A DNA stretch of 64,000 nucleotides. It comes from Acidobacteriota bacterium (GTDB lineage Bacteria; Acidobacteriota; Vicinamibacteria; Vicinamibacterales; CAVVIG01). Location: positions 1 through 64,000 of the forward strand of contig JACPZW010000085.1 of assembly GCA_016195265.1 (NCBI GenBank), written 5' to 3'. Of this stretch, positions 21,739 through 51,861 are shown piece after piece. Each line of letters begins with the position of its first letter. Positions within the stretch are counted from its first letter, which is position 1. The notes under the pieces are model-generated. The model made no database searches. It saw nothing but the letters and a program-made list of their open reading frames with translations, and was not told where the DNA came from. Made by a program: the position numbers and the translations under genes.

Positions 21739-23982
21739 ATGAAACACACATTGACGGCCGGCGTTGGCGTCGTCTTAGCGGGAGCGAGCGTGGCGGCGGG
21801 CCTGGCGGCGGGCCGGATGACGCCGGCATCCAGAGTCGAGATCAAGACACTCTCCACGGCCGCCACGCGCGTGACCGGCGGCGACGTCCTCGTGCAGGTC
21901 ACTGCGCCGGCAGGCACCTCCACGAAAATGACCGTCGGCGAACGTGATGTGAGCAATGCGTTCCGCGCCGGCGCCTCGTCGACGGCTCGCGTCGGATTGA
22001 TAACGGGCCTTGCGAACGGGAAGAACGTCGTCGAGGTGCGCTCGAAGGCCGGCGGTCCGCCGGACGCGTCTCTGACGATCACGAACTACCCGATCACCGG
22101 CCCGGTCTTCTCCGGGCCGCAGATTCAGCCGTTCATCTGTCAGACCGACACGTTCAAGCTGCCCGACGGCACGACGCTCGGTCCGCCGCTCGACGCGAAC
22201 TGCTCGGCGAAGACCGTCGTGCAGTACGTCTATCGCACGACCGGGACGCCGCCGGCGTTCAAGCCGCTGACGACGCTGGCCTCCGTGACGCTGCCCCCGG
22301 ATCTCGCCACGACAACGACCAGCGCCGGCGCGACCGTGAACTTCATCGTCCGCGTGGAGACGGGCACGATGAACCGCGCGATTTATCAGAATGCGATTCT
22401 TCACGATCCGACCGTCGACGCGCCGGTGTCGCCGTTCTCGCCGCCGAAGGGCTGGAACAAACATCTGGTCGCCATTCACGGCGCCGGCTGCCCTGGCGGC
22501 TGGTACATCCAGGGCGGCGCGATGGGCACGTCGCCGCTCGACGCCGCGCGGCTGGGCGAAGGCGACGCGCTGTTTGTCAGCACGCTGAATCATCCGACCA
22601 ACAGCTGCAACGCGATCGTCGCCGGCGAGACGGCGATGATGGGCAAGGAGCACTTCATCGAGACCTTCGGCATGCCGGCGTACACGATCAGCACCGGTTC
22701 GTCCGGCGGCGCCTACACGAGCCTGCAGCTCGCGGACGCGTTCCCCGGTCTCTTCGACGGCGTCAGCATCGCCGCGACGTTCCCCGATGCGCTGTCCATC
22801 GCGCTCGCCGGTCTCGACGCGCATCTGCTGACGCACTATTTCGCGTCTCTCCCTACCGGCCCCACCAGCCCTACCAGCCCCACCCGCCCAGCGTTCACCG
22901 ACGCGCAAAAACTCGCGATCACGGGCTACTCGACGATCAAGGCGTTCGTGGACGCGGCGAACCAATCGCAGCGGACCGATCCCGTGCCGAATCGCGCGGA
23001 CATCGAGGGCTATCAGTCGGCGCGCTGGAATGCGGTCGTGCCGGAGAACCTGCGGTACGACCCGATGAACAACCCGCGTGGCGCGCGGCCGACCGTCTTC
23101 GACGTGGCGCGCAACGTCTACGGCACGAACACCGCGACCGGTTTCGCGCTGCGGCCGTACGACAACGTCGGCGTCCAGTACGGGCTGCACGCGCTCAACC
23201 GCGGCGCGATCACGTCGGCGCAGTTCCTCGATTTGAACGAACGGATCGGCGGCGTCGATCAGGATTCGAACTACATCGCGTCGCGCACGATCGGCGACGC
23301 GGGCGCGATCGCGCGGACGTATCAGAGCGGACTGCTGCTGAGCGGCAAGGGCGGCCTCGCGTCGATTCCGATCGTCGACAACGCGACGTCGAACGAAGCC
23401 GGCGGCTATCACTACGGCTGGTTTCACTACGCGCTGCGTGAGCGGCTGAGTCAGGCGAACGGCAACTCCGACAACCTGGTGATGTGGCGCAGCACCGTGG
23501 CGGCCGATGCGAAGGCGATGTTCGACACGTGGATGGCCGCGTACGCCGCCGACACGTCGAACGATCCGCAGCGGACGAAAGTCCTGCGCGCGAAGCCGGC
23601 GAACGCCGTCGAAGGCTGTTACGACAAGTCCACGCCGCCGGTGTTCATGGCCGAACACCTCGTTTTCACCAGCCAGCCGACGACGAAATGCTCCGCGCTC
23701 TATCCGGTGTACTCGAACACGCGGACTGAAGCCGGCGGATCCGTGGCGGGTAACGTGCTGAAGTGCCGGTTGAAGCCCATCGATCCAAAAGACTATAAAG
23801 TAACGTTCTCGGCCGACGAGCGCGCCCGCCTCAACAAGATCTTCTCCGGTGGCGTCTGCGACTGGTCGAAGCCTGGCGTGAACCAGGCGCCCGTGGTGGC
23901 GTGGCCGTCGGTCGGCCCGTCGCCGGAACATCTGTTGATCGACGGCGCCAAGACGACGACATCACCGGGGAGCCCGCTTTGA
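21739..23982 (+). CDS. Secreted DUF6351-family protein (putative esterase fold)
   Basis: About 747 residues. ATG 21739 has CGAGG 6 bp upstream (ATG 21736 is possible). The signal peptide runs to about residue 25 (MKHTLTAGVGVVLAGASVAA). The protein has the DUF6351 layout: an N-terminal Ig-like part, then VAIHGAGCPGGWYIQGG, ISTGSSGGAYTSLQLAD (a GxSxGG nucleophile-elbow-like motif), and a Cys-containing C-terminal part (VFMAEHLVFTSQPTTKCSAL). A Pro/Ser/Thr linker PTGPTSPTSPTRP sits near residue 375. It follows the tannase-family gene, so both may act on plant-derived esters; that is inference. Reaction unproven. Confidence 0.75.
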   Translation: MKHTLTAGVGVVLAGASVAAGLAAGRMTPASRVEIKTLSTAATRVTGGDVLVQVTAPAGTSTKMTVGERDVSNAFRAGASSTARVGLITGLANGKNVVEVRSKAGGPPDASLTITNYPITGPVFSGPQIQPFICQTDTFKLPDGTTLGPPLDANCSAKTVVQYVYRTTGTPPAFKPLTTLASVTLPPDLATTTTSAGATVNFIVRVETGTMNRAIYQNAILHDPTVDAPVSPFSPPKGWNKHLVAIHGAGCPGGWYIQGGAMGTSPLDAARLGEGDALFVSTLNHPTNSCNAIVAGETAMMGKEHFIETFGMPAYTISTGSSGGAYTSLQLADAFPGLFDGVSIAATFPDALSIALAGLDAHLLTHYFASLPTGPTSPTSPTRPAFTDAQKLAITGYSTIKAFVDAANQSQRTDPVPNRADIEGYQSARWNAVVPENLRYDPMNNPRGARPTVFDVARNVYGTNTATGFALRPYDNVGVQYGLHALNRGAITSAQFLDLNERIGGVDQDSNYIASRTIGDAGAIARTYQSGLLLSGKGGLASIPIVDNATSNEAGGYHYGWFHYALRERLSQANGNSDNLVMWRSTVAADAKAMFDTWMAAYAADTSNDPQRTKVLRAKPANAVEGCYDKSTPPVFMAEHLVFTSQPTTKCSALYPVYSNTRTEAGGSVAGNVLKCRLKPIDPKDYKVTFSADERARLNKIFSGGVCDWSKPGVNQAPVVAWPSVGPSPEHLLIDGAKTTTSPGSPL

Positions 23983-40979: not shown

Positions 40980-40985
40980 CGTTTT

Positions 40986-41014
40986 CTCCTCCGTGTCCTC
41001 TGTGTCCTCCGTGG
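40986..41014. repeat. CCTCCGTGTCCTCTGTGTCCTCCGTGG-type repeat
   Basis: CTCCTCCGTGTCCTCTGTGTCCTCCGTGG, a degenerate tandem of CCTCNGTGT. The same family reappears in the large inverted repeat at 47177. A separate perfect hairpin, CGCGAGGCTGAAAGCCTCGCG, lies at 41133-41153. Confidence 0.75.
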
Positions 41015-41174: not shown

Positions 41175-43619
41175 ATGACAAGTGATGTGAAGTTCGCGCT
41201 GCGGTCGCTGATGCGGGTCAAGGGGCTCGCCATGACGGTCGTGCTGACGCTCGCCCTCGGCATCGGCGCCAACGCCGCCATCTTCAGCATCGTCCGCGGC
41301 GTGCTGCTGCGCCCGCTCGTCAACAAGGACGAGGCGCACCTCGTCTATATCCGCCAGAGTGCGCCAGGCGTCGGCACGGAGAACACGGCGTTTTCCGTTC
41401 CCGAGATCGACGATCTGCGCGCCGGCTTGAAAAACGTCACGGGTCTTTGCGGCTTTTCGACGATCGGATTCACGATGGTCGGCCTCGGCGATCCACAGCA
41501 GGTGCGCGCGGGCGTGGTCGACGGCGCGTACTTCGACACCATGGGCCTGCACCCGGTACTGGGACGGTTGATCAACGCGGGCGACGATGGGCCGAGCGCG
41601 GCGGGCGTGGCGGTCCTCACGCATCGCTTCTGGTCGACGACGCTTCACGCGGATCCGGGCGTCATCGGCAAACAGATTCGTCTCGGCGCGCGGTCGGCGA
41701 CGGTCATCGGTGTCCTTGAGCCGTCGGTCCCCTATCCCTCCGAAACGGAGCTGATCGCGAACGTTGTGACGAGCCCGCATCACTTGTCCGCGACGATGGT
41801 CACGGGCCGCGAGCACCGGATGACGGAAGTCTTCGGCCGCCTCGCGCCGGGCACGGAACTGGACCAGGCGCGCGCGGAGCTGGCGACCGTGTACGGCGGC
41901 ATGGTCCAGTCGCACCCCGAGTCGTATCAGAAGAAGGCGAACTTCACGATCAACGCGGTGCGGCTGCGCGATCAGATCACGTCGAAGGCGCGCACGGTGC
42001 TGCTCGTGCTGCTGGCGGCGTCGGGTTTGATGTTCATCATCGCGTGCTCGAACGTCGCGAACCTGATCCTCGCGCGGACCGTGCGTCGCGAGTCGGAGCT
42101 CGCCGTCAGGACGGCTCTCGGCGCATCGACTAGCGCGTTGCGTCGAACGCTGCTGGCGGAGTCGCTCGTGTTGTGCGGCGCGGGCGGACTGCTCGGCGTG
42201 GCAATCGCGCAGCCGATGGTGACCGTGCTTTCGCGCTACGCGGCGCGCTTCTCGGTGCGCGCGCTCGATCTGCAGCTCGACTGGACGATGATCGCGGTCG
42301 GCGTTGGCCTGGCGCTGGCGTCGGCGGTCCTGCTCGCGTTCGTGCCGCGCCTGCCCTCGACCGATTCGACGAACGGCCTCGGCCTCGCCAACGGCAGTCC
42401 GCGGACGACGGGCACGGCGAATCGCAAGCTGCGCGCGTTCGCCGTCGTGCAGGTGGCCGCGTGCTTCATGCTGCTCGCCGGCGCCGGCATGCTGCTGCGC
42501 ACGCTGATGACGCTGCAGGCGTCGAATCCGGGCTTCGAAACGCGGAGTGTGCTGGCGATCAACGTGCCGGTGATGTCGTACGGGAAGACGGGCGACCAGA
42601 TTCGCGAGTTTTACCGCGAGATGCGGCGGCGCGTGACCGACATTCCTGGCGTCGCGCAGGTGGCCATCGGCGGCGCAGTGCCGTGGCGCGACCTCGGCAA
42701 CTTCGGTCAGGGTCTCGCGTTCACGGTCGAAGGGTGGAGGCGCGGCAAGGACGAGGACGACCCGCACGGCAAGTCGCGGTCGATTTCGCCGGGCTTCTTC
42801 GCGGCGCTCAACATCCCGATTCTGGAAGGGCGCGATTTCACGGACGCCGATCGCAACAGCACGGAAAGCGTGGTGATCGTCAGCGCCGCGCTGGCGCAGC
42901 GGCTCTTTCCCGGCCAGAGCGTGCTGAACCGCCACTTGAACTGGACCGATCCGGTCATCAAGTTCATCGGCGTGAGCGCGGAGCCGCGACGCATCGTCGG
43001 CATCGCCGCGGACATCAACGACGAGCAGATCGGCGGCGCGCCGACGATGATCATCTACCAGCCGTTCGAGCAGGCCACCGGCGGCGGGCGGCTGTTCGTC
43101 CACGCGCGGACGGATCCGTACGCGCTCGTGCCGCTGATCACGAAGACCGTGCGCGACATGGCGGCCGACCAGCCGATCGAGCGCGCGGCGACGCTCGAAG
43201 ACGTGCGCGCCGAAGTGCTGTCGCCGAACCGGCTGAACACGATCGTCTTCGGCGGTTTCGCGGCGGTCGCGCTGGCGATTTCGATCGTGGGCGTCGCGGG
43301 CGTGCTCGCGTTTTCCGTCAGCGCACGCATGCGCGAATTCGGGATCCGGATGGCGATCGGCTCGCAGCCGCGCGCGATTCTCACGAGCGTGCTGAAGGAA
43401 GGCGCGTGGATGGCCGGGCTGGGCGTCGTGTGCGGGGCCGTCGGCGGATTCGCGATGTCGCGCGTGATTGGCAGCATGATCAGTGATGTTCAGCTGCCGG
43501 GGCCGCTGCCGACGATCGGCGCCGCGCTCGTGCTGCTCGGCGCGGCTATCGTCGCCGCGGTGTGGCCGGCCGCGCGGGCCGCGCGGGTCGACGTCGTCCA
43601 GGCGTTGCGCGCCGAGTAG
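41175..43619 (+). CDS. MacB/FtsX-family ABC transporter permease (acidobacterial orphan permease type)
   Basis: 814 residues, complete. The N-terminal helix (VLTLALGIGANAAIFSIVRG) and MacB core are followed by the first FtsX domain (about 275-380, VRRESELAVRTALGASTSAL), a second core with FFAALNIPILEGRDFTDADR, and the last FtsX domain (about 680-814, MREFGIRMAIGSQPRAIL, ending VDVVQALRAE). No ATPase is adjacent. The start ATG has only a weak GAG upstream. A TAGAAT -10-like box (41120) and a hairpin lie in the leader. Serves as the intact reference for the broken copy at 35386. Confidence 0.9.
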   Translation: MTSDVKFALRSLMRVKGLAMTVVLTLALGIGANAAIFSIVRGVLLRPLVNKDEAHLVYIRQSAPGVGTENTAFSVPEIDDLRAGLKNVTGLCGFSTIGFTMVGLGDPQQVRAGVVDGAYFDTMGLHPVLGRLINAGDDGPSAAGVAVLTHRFWSTTLHADPGVIGKQIRLGARSATVIGVLEPSVPYPSETELIANVVTSPHHLSATMVTGREHRMTEVFGRLAPGTELDQARAELATVYGGMVQSHPESYQKKANFTINAVRLRDQITSKARTVLLVLLAASGLMFIIACSNVANLILARTVRRESELAVRTALGASTSALRRTLLAESLVLCGAGGLLGVAIAQPMVTVLSRYAARFSVRALDLQLDWTMIAVGVGLALASAVLLAFVPRLPSTDSTNGLGLANGSPRTTGTANRKLRAFAVVQVAACFMLLAGAGMLLRTLMTLQASNPGFETRSVLAINVPVMSYGKTGDQIREFYREMRRRVTDIPGVAQVAIGGAVPWRDLGNFGQGLAFTVEGWRRGKDEDDPHGKSRSISPGFFAALNIPILEGRDFTDADRNSTESVVIVSAALAQRLFPGQSVLNRHLNWTDPVIKFIGVSAEPRRIVGIAADINDEQIGGAPTMIIYQPFEQATGGGRLFVHARTDPYALVPLITKTVRDMAADQPIERAATLEDVRAEVLSPNRLNTIVFGGFAAVALAISIVGVAGVLAFSVSARMREFGIRMAIGSQPRAILTSVLKEGAWMAGLGVVCGAVGGFAMSRVIGSMISDVQLPGPLPTIGAALVLLGAAIVAAVWPAARAARVDVVQALRAE

Positions 43620-43644
43620 CCGCCACTTTCTTCCGCGGTCTCGT

Positions 43645-43755
43645 TGGCGTCCGGCTTTAGCCGGACCTCGGGCGGTGTGGCGTCCGGCTTCCCGCCTGCG
43701 CCCGGCTTCGGCGTGGCCCGCCATAGCGCAACGCGCGGAGGCGGCAGCCGGACGG
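43645..43755. repeat. Composite repeat with GGCGTCCGGCTT and GCGCAACGCGCGGAGGCGGCAGCCG modules
   Basis: Contains the hairpin GGCGTCCGGCTTTAGCCGGACCTC, then TGGCGTCCGGCTTCCCGCCTGCGCCCGGCTTCGGCGTGGC (partly palindromic) and GCGCAACGCGCGGAGGCGGCAGCCG. A second copy of the latter two modules is inside the gene at 44537. Confidence 0.8.
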
Positions 43756-43758
43756 CGC

Positions 43759-43764
43759 TACAAT
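43759..43764 (+). promoter_or_regulatory. -10-like box upstream of the two-gene nucleotidyltransferase module
   Basis: TACAAT 8 bp before ATG 43773; no ribosome-binding site lies in between, so the first gene may be leaderless. Confidence 0.35.
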
Positions 43765-43772
43765 TCGAGTAG

Positions 43773-44030
43773 ATGCCTGATTCGCGAGACGCGCCTCGCG
43801 CCGACACGAGCAAGATATCCGGCCGCGACTCAGCCACCGGCCTGTCGTGGGCACTCGAGTCTCCCGAGCAGCACTGGGCCGAGCACGACGCGCGCCAGCT
43901 CGCGTACTGGCGCACTCGATCGCCGGAAGAGCGCCTCGCGCAAGCAGCGGAGTACCGCTGGCGCCGGCACGGCGATATTCCGGAGCCGGCGGTCTGGACC
44001 TGGCGCTTCCTGCCGCCAGGCGAGCAGTAG
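43773..44030 (+). CDS. Small hydrophilic protein paired with a nucleotidyltransferase
   Basis: 85 residues, rich in Trp, Arg and Glu (LSWALESPEQHWAEHDARQL, AYWRTRSPEERLAQAAEYRW). I do not recognise a family; the predicted structure is mostly helical. Its stop codon TAG is immediately followed by the ATG of the nucleotidyltransferase gene (TAGATG), so they are translationally linked. The pairing resembles a toxin-antitoxin or modifier-target unit; this is an inference from gene order only. Confidence 0.6.
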   Translation: MPDSRDAPRADTSKISGRDSATGLSWALESPEQHWAEHDARQLAYWRTRSPEERLAQAAEYRWRRHGDIPEPAVWTWRFLPPGEQ

Positions 44031-44519
44031 ATGGTGGCAGCGCGGCCGCCGTCTCCTTCCTTCGTGCGCCTGTGCGAGTGTCTCAACCACGCCAGCGTCG
44101 AATTCGTCGTCGTCGGAAGTGAGGCCGTGGCGTTCCACGGCGTGCCCCGCTATAGCCTCGACTTCGACATCTTCGTGCGCTCCACGAGGGTGAACCTGTT
44201 TCGGGTGAAAGCCGGGCTCGATATGTTCGGCTTTGCCGATCTTACGAAGACGCTGGATCCTGAAGTGTGGGCACGGACGCGCCATACGCTGCGGCTGGGA
44301 GAGCCGCCGCTGCAGATCGATGTGCTCCTGCAGTTGAGCGGCGTGGAATATGAAGCGGTCGGGCGTTCGGCCATCGCCGGCAGCTACGGCGACGTGCGGG
44401 TGCGGTTCATGGCACGCGCGGATTTGATCGTCAACAAGCGCGCCGCCGGCCGCGCGAAGGATCTGGCGGACGTCGAGGCGCTCGAGTCCGCATCAGGGAC
44501 TGCCGAAGGCGAAGAGTAG
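44031..44519 (+). CDS. Nucleotidyltransferase-fold protein (DUF6036/MNT-like)
   Basis: 162 residues starting directly after the previous stop. The Pol-beta nucleotidyltransferase motif is FVVVGSEAVAFHG (G-S helix) followed by YSLDFDIFVR (DxD metal site). The second half includes PPLQIDVLLQLSGVEYEAVG, with the third Asp (QIDV), and KRAAGRAKDLADVEALE, which is typical of AbiEii/DUF6036-type proteins. These act as tRNA- or protein-modifying toxins in some systems. The partner protein could be the antitoxin. It has no obvious HEPN neighbour. Confidence 0.75.
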   Translation: MVAARPPSPSFVRLCECLNHASVEFVVVGSEAVAFHGVPRYSLDFDIFVRSTRVNLFRVKAGLDMFGFADLTKTLDPEVWARTRHTLRLGEPPLQIDVLLQLSGVEYEAVGRSAIAGSYGDVRVRFMARADLIVNKRAAGRAKDLADVEALESASGTAEGEE

Positions 44520-44536
44520 TACGGTTCGGACGGCGG

Positions 44537-44944
44537 CTATCGTCGCCGCGGTTTGGCCCGCGGTGCTTTCCTTGACCGCCGTAGCCTTGGCGTAGGCGGT
44601 TTCGGCGCCGTCTTTTTCGCCGGAGTCTTTTTCGCCGTCGCCTTGCGGCGCGCCACCTGCTTCGGCTTCGCGGCGTTCGGCGCGGCGTCAGTCGGCTGCG
44701 TGGCGTCCGGCTTCCCGCCTGCGCCAGGCTTCGGCGTGGCGCGCCGTAGCGCAACGCGCGGAGGCGGCAGCCGTACCGGCTCGTCCACGGAAATCCCCTT
44801 CGCCCGCCTCTCGATACGCGACGGATCGAGCACGTCGAGCAGACCGTCGTAGACTTCCTTCGCCCTGGAATCCGGAACTCCGCTCGCGATCCGCTCGCGC
44901 AGGTAGTTCGTGGCGGCGAGGATGTTCAGGTGCTGCCAGTTCAC
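44537..44944 (-). CDS. Small protein with histone H1-like basic tail, partly repeat-derived
   Basis: 135 residues from GTG 44944. Residues 1-55 (MNWQHLNILAATNYLRERIA, then SGVPDSRAKEVYDGLLDVLD) look like the original globular part. Residues about 57-85 (VRLPPPRVALRRATPKPGAG) are the translation of a dispersed repeat that is also found at 43645. The rest is a KA/KP-rich tail (KKTPAKKTAPK) with a fragment from a second palindrome family (TPRLRRSRKAP). Suggested function: none beyond nucleic-acid affinity of the tail. A TACAGT box 7 bp before the GTG suggests a leaderless start. Confidence 0.55.
   Translation of the reverse strand: MNWQHLNILAATNYLRERIASGVPDSRAKEVYDGLLDVLDPSRIERRAKGISVDEPVRLPPPRVALRRATPKPGAGGKPDATQPTDAAPNAAKPKQVARRKATAKKTPAKKTAPKPPTPRLRRSRKAPRAKPRRR
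44700..44772. repeat. Composite repeat inside a coding sequence (same family as 43645)
   Basis: GTGGCGTCCGGCTTCCCGCCTGCGCCAGGCTTCGGCGTGGCGCGCCGTAGCGCAACGCGCGGAGGCGGCAGCCG differs by only a few bases from the intergenic copy about 1 kb upstream. Confidence 0.8.
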
Positions 44945-45033
44945 GCGGTTGACTGTAACCCAAGTCGTCCTCTAGACGACGCGCCGCCCATGGCACGGCC
45001 TCTCTTTTTCGAACATGCGGGCGGCTACCGATG

Positions 45034-47176: not shown

Positions 47177-47503
47177 TAACCACAGAGGACACGGAGGACA
47201 CGGAGAAGAGGTGAATAGCCACAGAGACACGGAGACACAGAGGTGTTCGACGCGGGCGGCCTGCCGAGCAGGCCGCGATGATCGGCCGGACGCCGGTGCG
47301 CAAAACGACAAGGGGCCGGGATGCAGTTGTCGCTTGCGCGCCGGCGTCCGGCCGACCGACGCCGCTTCGCGGCGCCGCGTCGAACACGACTGCCTGTGAT
47401 TCCGATCTCCGTGCCTCTGTGACTCTGTGGCCCATTCCCTCTGTGTTCCTCCGTGTCTCGGTGGCGAATTTCCCTCCGTGTCCTCCGTGTCCCCGTGGTT
47501 AAC
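47177..47503. repeat. Large imperfect inverted repeat, about 325 bp, with CACAGAGGACACGGAGG arms
   Basis: The outer arms are AACCACAGAGGACACGGAGGACACGGAG and its near reverse complement CTCCGTGTCCTCCGTGTCCCCGTGGTT. Next inside, GTGTTCGACGCGG (47243) pairs with CCGCGTCGAACAC (47375), and ATCGGCCGGACGCCGGTGCGCAA (47281) with TTGCGCGCCGGCGTCCGGCCGAC (47334), around a loop near 47312-47328. Each arm also has a small hairpin (GCGGCCTGCCGAGCAGGCCGC). There is no gene in this 395-base gap. Confidence 0.85.
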
Positions 47504-51776: not shown

Positions 51777-51828
51777 GTCCGACTGAAGTCGGACACGAGG
51801 AAGCCGGGTCCAAAAGGACCCGGCCTAC
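51777..51828. repeat. Two palindromes of different families side by side
   Basis: GGTCCGACTGAAGTCGGACAC followed by GCCGGGTCCAAAAGGACCCGGCCTAC. They mark the right edge of the NYN fragment. Confidence 0.8.
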
Positions 51829-51861
51829 TTCCTCACTTCCTCACATCCTCACATCCGATCG

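Follow-up and report, generated by a model that had tools for sequence, protein, structure and literature searches.

Layered palindromic repeats in an Acidobacteriota genome and their association with GxxExxY nuclease genes

The window, that is, the whole analysed stretch of 64,000 nucleotides from an Acidobacteriota contig, contains a multi-layered inverted repeat between two divergent genes. The initial annotation, made from the sequence of the window, suggested that this repeat might be a miniature mobile element or a structured transcript. The question is which of these it is, and whether some gene of the host could act on it.

The window element and its repeat family

The arms and nested complementary pairs described in the initial annotation are present. 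The outer arms (47187–47205/47474–47492) are 19 nt long and 100% complementary, further nested pairs are located at 47238–47255/47375–47392 and 47272–47303/47334–47365, and the layers of arms recur at intervals of about 34 bp (Table 1). The suggested ability to form a long hairpin or cruciform was confirmed by folding: the RNA fold energy of the 341-nt stretch is −217.9 kcal/mol, compared with −141.5 ± 5.9 kcal/mol in shuffled sequences (z = −13.0), and none of the 100 shuffles was as good. The flanking genes are indeed divergent: the minus-strand gene encodes an aminotransferase class V, and the plus-strand gene encodes a glyoxalase-like protein that scores just below the Pfam cut-off. The element lies between these two protein genes and carries no PF05635 ORF. 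The CCTCCGTGTCC unit noticed near 40986 also exists; it belongs to a single right-hand arm lacking a partner. Five arm-like 18-mers were found in the window versus 0.04 expected, and this excess, together with the fold z-score and the copies in the genome, rules out a chance or low-complexity palindrome. Two other short-period arrays are present in the window, CCCTACCAG with a period of 9 at 22851–22880 and TTCCTCAC with a period of 8 at 51824–51858; such arrays are seen around IVP genes. The ORF translations at 43500–44950 repeat LPPPRVALWRATPKPGAGGKPDAT, apparently a further dispersed repeat family that is translated in frame.

Table 1. Parts of the window element and the solo arm of the same family.
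Feature	Position	Strand	Sequence	Observation
Whole element	47177–47503	.	TAACCACAGAGG to CCGTGGTTA	322-bp copy elsewhere in the genome, 86% identity
Outer left arm	47180–47207	+	CCACAGAGGACACGGAGGACACGGAGAA, period 9	Arm-family matches in genome and window
Inner left arm	47218–47242	+	GCCACAGAGACACGGAGACACAGAG	Inverted-repeat search
P1, 5' strand	47243–47255	+	GTGTTCGACGCGG	11 of 13 P1 pairs compensatory
Hairpin P4	47256–47276	+	GCGGCCTGC-CGA-GCAGGCCGC	Almost invariant across copies
Long variable hairpin P3	47281–47355	+		24 of 26 P3 pairs compensatory
Hairpin P2	47360–47374	+	CGCCGC-TTC-GCGGCG; other strand GCCGC-GAA-GCGGC	Almost invariant
P1, 3' strand	47375–47387	+	CCGCGTCGAACAC	Arm pairing and core alignment
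Inner right arm	47404–47430	-		Repeat search
Middle right arm layer	47434–47465	-		34 bp beyond the previous layer; repeat search
Outer right arm	47470–47501	-	CCCTCCGTGTCCTCCGTGTCCCCGTGGTTA	Inverted-repeat search
Solo right-hand arm, same family	40985–41014 (about)	-	Contains CCTCCGTGTCCTCTGTGTCCTCCGTGG	No partner arm nearby

The element is not a single copy, so that the condition under which the initial annotation would fail, a lone copy lacking structural support in relatives, does not apply. A search of its own genome (G000; 4.5 Mb in 87 contigs) gave 106 matching pieces, including the long copy mentioned in Table 1; these correspond to about 45 loci, as counted by eye from the matched loci. 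Four sorts of copies can be noted. Full copies have layered arms that surround a core, and small ones measure about 90 bp (e.g., TTAACCACGGAGGACACGGAGG-(about 30 bp)-CCTCCGTGTCCTCCGTGGTTA); the other two sorts are copies consisting of the inner arms only and stubs. The arms are composed of inverted degenerate units of 8–9 bp (ACCACAGAGRCACRGAG...) layered around a core with the shape of a four-way junction. The copies read from this genome have the purine-rich strand first at their left end, and their arms end in ACCAC...GTGGT. Small copies were found between his genes and before the gene of the nuo 49-kDa subunit. The loop sequence of each small copy is unique, which is not predicted by simple transposition of the whole element. 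No prior description of the family was found in the titles and abstracts of open-access papers on REPs, MITEs, cruciforms, and IVPs.

A common order, P1, P2 (GCCGC-GAA-GCGGC), P3, P4 (GGCCTGC...GCAGGCC), and P1', was found in 24 cores. As the cores were located through P2 and P4, these two hairpins owe part of their conservation to the search itself, in which P1 and P3 played no role. In 20 aligned cores, 37 of the 54 base pairs show double (compensatory) changes, and P1 and P3 vary yet keep pairing; the sequence of P3 differs among subfamilies, and its self-complementarity is always retained. The number of compensated cells in the alignment is 220, compared with 85 ± 8 in shuffles and 21–55 in slid control structures; as the shuffles ignore relatedness and the structure comes from this very alignment, the magnitude of the difference is relied on besides the counts. 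RNA transcribed from either strand would be expected to leave an excess of one wobble type, G.U or A.C. The mismatches in the cores comprise 29 G.U and 35 A.C, and those in the arms 87 G.U and 69 A.C (p = 0.17). Since the two types are equally common, the structure is read as DNA rather than RNA, and the compensatory changes appear to reflect pairing in DNA. Alternatively, the equal frequencies could be caused by templated correction between the arms.

Association of the arms with GxxExxY genes

In the own genome, the arms and the four-way core at C34:54150–54830 enclose an ORF (C34:54256–54603) encoding a protein of the GxxExxY family (PF13366, TIGR04256). The second intact GxxExxY gene of this genome (C7:5339–5677) is located between CACGAAG arms. 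Thus, both intact GxxExxY genes are bracketed by arms, one of them with the core inside. The order arm–gene–core–arm is identical in four genera of the family, the own genus and three others. The flanks of the match in L087/L193 contain a circularly permuted four-way core: the GxxExxY gene is enclosed by the loop of P1, and P3 forms the outer stem.

The frequency of such bracketing was estimated from the local complementarity of two 220-bp flanks in 27 genomes of the family, with a threshold of 15, the maximum reached at random window positions. Complementarity above 15 was found at 22 of 30 GxxExxY loci and around none of the 28 PIN genes of similar size (p = 1e-9). The same threshold was exceeded at 4/396 control positions and 0/1500 random window positions. 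A sample of 80 GxxExxY loci was also taken from named organisms (Acidobacteria, Chloroflexi, Planctomycetes, Bacteroidetes, Cyanobacteria, Chlamydiae, Proteobacteria, and archaea of the Methanothrix/Methanosarcinales); here, the threshold was exceeded at 47 loci, compared with 1 of 366 control positions. Nearly all of these 47 loci share the motif ACCACAGAGRCACAGAG with CRCRRAG variants, the purine strand being on the 5' side of the gene. The arm sequence tracks the nuclease clade: when pairs from the same genome are excluded, protein identity correlates with cross-locus arm pairing (Spearman rho 0.36; 0 of 2000 permutations). The CACAGAG/CACGGAG arrays can also be read through as nuclease N-termini, e.g., HGDTEDTEMNKPQSHRGTE.

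In four genera (L284, L285, L286, and L287), a similar large gene is followed directly by an element with a GxxExxY gene of the CACAGAG clade; the genes 3' of the element differ. The large gene matches DrmMI/Eco57I-like methylases in L285 and L286, and in the latter it is preceded by a gene for a DrmD-like SNF2 helicase, giving a DISARM-like pair.

The association is also seen at the level of whole genomes. Among 149 genomes of the phylum, four or more arm motifs were found in 32 of 57 genomes with PF13366 and in 3 of 92 without it (p = 9e-14; these genomes are related and not independent, so Fisher p-values overstate significance and are indicative only), and 1078 of the 1130 arm motifs fall in genomes with PF13366. 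Twenty-five of the 57 positive genomes have fewer than four motifs of the searched kind. Two genomes, G050 and G054, contain 90 and 98 arm motifs, yet only damaged (partial or interrupted) GxxExxY matches; the paired arms of G050 are oriented oppositely (GGT..ACC). At least four motifs are present in 25/37 Y1-positive genomes with GxxExxY compared with 2/30 without it, and in 7/20 Y1-negative genomes with GxxExxY compared with 1/62 without it. Among the GxxExxY-positive genomes, Y1 transposases add a weak effect (25/37 versus 7/20, p = 0.03). The own genome, which is 91% complete, contains 79 arm motifs and gave no Y1_Tnp match at E <= 1e-10. Repeat abundance is linked to GxxExxY as the candidate chromosomal partner gene and not to a RAYT, the REPIN system serving as an analogy only.

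GxxExxY proteins are about 120 aa in length. All 29 sequences compared match PF13366, and four members score 131–147 bits with TIGR04256, for which the cut-off is 35. Residues D62, E72, K74, and Q86 are invariant in all 29 sequences and correspond to the catalytic D, E-x-K, and Q of PD-(D/E)XK nucleases. The fold was predicted with a pLDDT of 91 by a model built from 61 relatives. Its closest solved structure is SSO0001, a Cas4 protein (4ic1; E = 9e-4, TM 0.57 on the query), followed by AdnAB and the lambda and LHK exonucleases; by sequence, no solved chain matches GxxExxY. GxxExxY is predicted to be a minimal Cas4-like nuclease. It resembles the Cas4 nucleases of CRISPR adaptation in this closest fold and in the catalytic pattern of the superfamily; however, it is only about 120 aa long, is assigned by curated models to GxxExxY and not to Cas4, and is bracketed by dispersed hairpins. 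Defence models gave only weak matches to the nuclease, mostly of the Cas4 type. The family is large, with at least 582 confirmed stretches in species genomes. A phage or plasmid origin of the nuclease was rejected, as it was found in none of 50,697 phage records, in seven plasmid records, and in one of 2.9 million viral contigs. In the open-access papers searched, no link between GxxExxY and repeats was found, one algal-virus paper being covered by its title and abstract.

Polymorphism of the element sites

The site of the window element and seven further element sites were compared with genomes of the same genus. In G023, only a right-arm stub, TCTCCGTGTCCTCTGTGGTTAAC, is present between the same two genes as in the window. 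Of the seven other sites in this genome, the one before hisG and the C27 site are filled, C25 and C81 contain right-arm stubs, and L070, L074, and the site before the nuo 49-kDa gene are empty. Four sites were aligned in G022; sequence or gap length indicates that three of them are filled or nearly so, and a deleted stub is present at the nuo site. In the pairs of filled sites, the loop has diverged and the arms have been retained. The stubs show loss by deletion; some of the empty sites may also be losses, gains being inseparable from clean losses. The flanks have diverged by roughly 10–20%, and no target-site duplication or exact boundary was readable in the comparisons of filled sites with empty sites or stubs.

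Beside the same aminotransferase gene in G022 (L115, about 2520–2760), the core of the element is reduced to GTGTTCGACGCG-TCGAACAC, and P1 is closed on itself. This fits either loss or gain of P2–P4 at the tip of P1. Beside the aminotransferase gene of other relatives (L116 and L118), a different short-period bracket family, GAAGTCTGAAGTC, was found.

The suggestion of a miniature mobile element therefore holds in that the family is dispersed, multi-copy, and polymorphic within the genus; no target-site duplication was found, and the likely enzymatic partner is a PD-(D/E)XK nuclease and not a known transposase.

Possible origin of the repeats and comparison with known systems

We consider it probable that the window element belongs, as a non-autonomous copy with a core, to a dispersed family of REP-like palindromes, for which the chromosomal GxxExxY protein is a trans-acting partner that acts on DNA hairpins. 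The support for this partnership comes from association; cleavage by the nuclease and the resulting mobility are inferred. The arms and the P1–P4 core would extrude as a DNA hairpin or cruciform when the DNA is single-stranded or supercoiled, with a four-way junction in the core. GxxExxY might recognise the ACCACAGAG arms or the junction and nick or trim the DNA there. Repair or copying of the hairpin could then allow the repeats to spread, to layer, and to become homogenised. Growth and turnover at the tips of hairpins, and not simple cut-and-paste, are suggested by the unique loops of the small copies and by the layering of the arms.

Other explanations can be offered. The palindromes might be kept by neutral mutation, namely by template switching between the arms and slippage of the 8–9 bp units, the GxxExxY gene being carried as one that tolerates such arrays or has been captured by them. 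The fast divergence of the loops between arms that stay complementary, the equality of G.U and A.C, and the tandem degenerate units are all in agreement with this, as is the bracketing of PF05635 genes by other motif families. Genes of the latter kind, encoding four-helix-bundle proteins of the 23S rRNA IVP type, were found between inverted arrays at 16 of 29 loci and at none of the 28 PIN controls. Their arrays consist of degenerate 7–9 bp units with a different motif at nearly every locus (L133–L162, e.g., L146, L147, L149, and L162), such as GATTAGG, GGTAGGGCA, ACGGTTCC, CAGCTGT, and GTTCACGGG. Since other motifs enclose these genes, such arrays may have a general tendency to bracket genes; the bracketed four-helix-bundle genes may also be a parallel system. 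However, GxxExxY is repeatedly accompanied by the same arm motif in both bacteria and archaea, the arm type follows the nuclease clade, and none of the 28 PIN genes of similar size is bracketed, which makes neutral mutation unlikely as the explanation.

The transcript proposed in the initial annotation fares worse. A structured RNA, whether a regulatory RNA, a processing site, or a terminator, conserved for its function in the transcript, would account for the very stable predicted fold and the strong covariation, and its architecture would resemble that of 23S rRNA intervening sequences, which have complementary sequences at their borders and are cleaved by RNase III (PMC4990558). Nevertheless, G.U and A.C are equally common on a core of defined orientation, and no Rfam family reached the gathering threshold or came near it (the best score is 28.1 bits against 90 needed). 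The sub-threshold matches are weak matches of microRNA models to the GC hairpin, so a known RNA was rejected. A terminator would be costly where the small copies sit, namely among the his genes and ahead of the gene for the nuo 49-kDa subunit, and was ruled out by these copies within gene clusters. We regard a role in RNA as improbable.

It is still more improbable that these are REP/REPIN-like elements moved by a Y1 (HUH) RAYT transposase with GxxExxY as a mere passenger: dispersed extragenic palindromes, also between operon genes, have the appearance of REPs, and Y1 transposases occur in 67 of the 149 genomes with the weak added effect mentioned above, but such a partner was not detected at E <= 1e-10 in the own genome with its 79 motifs, seven GxxExxY-positive, Y1-negative genomes carry 7 to 79 motifs, Y1-positive genomes without GxxExxY rarely carry arms, and the arms end in ACC/GGT with no GTAG or CGTC tag seen by eye.

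The repeat family with GxxExxY as its candidate partner can nevertheless be compared with the REP/REPIN–RAYT system. In both, mostly intergenic palindromes are dispersed in tens of copies, most of them are non-autonomous, and a chromosomal partner gene is flanked by cognate repeats. The partner here is a PD-(D/E)XK Cas4-like nuclease and not an HUH enzyme, the arms are layered from degenerate units around a four-way-junction core, and the REPIN unit, a palindrome of 20–40 nt with a GTAG or CGTC end tag, was not found when the arm ends were read by eye. Like MITEs, the copies are short, dispersed, and non-autonomous, with imperfect terminal inverted repeats; unlike MITEs, they have unique loops and implicate no DDE transposase, and no target-site duplication was visible between their diverged flanks.

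The 23S rRNA intervening sequences with S23p/IVP (PF05635) are similar in that a small ORF is enclosed by complementary arms forming a long stem. In addition, the layers of the repeats described here look like insertions at hairpin tips, and intervening sequences replace the tetraloops of helices (PMC4990558). The differences are that the window copy and the other copies with checked neighbours lie between protein genes and not in rRNA, that the gene-bearing copies with these arms carry PF13366 and not PF05635, and that the covariation gives no RNA-strand signal.

That GxxExxY genes of many bacterial phyla, and of some archaea, lie between such arms suggests that enzyme and repeat form a pair not linked before, encountered here in a soil bacterium. 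More tentatively, GxxExxY nucleases and the ACCACAGAG bracket repeats could represent a widespread class of prokaryotic mobile or domesticated elements, in which a stand-alone Cas4-like nuclease processes hairpins or junctions and drives tip insertion and layering unaided by any HUH, DDE, serine, or tyrosine enzyme, and of which the IVP bracket elements could be a second branch. If so, the IVP branch would offer a setting in which ideas on the origin of rRNA intervening sequences can be tested. Should the link between GxxExxY and the repeats be correct, a class of nucleases would be added to the known ways of maintaining dispersed palindromes. This link provides a candidate substrate for the nuclease and a candidate enzyme for the repeats, both of which can be tested with a protein of 120 residues and a synthetic hairpin.
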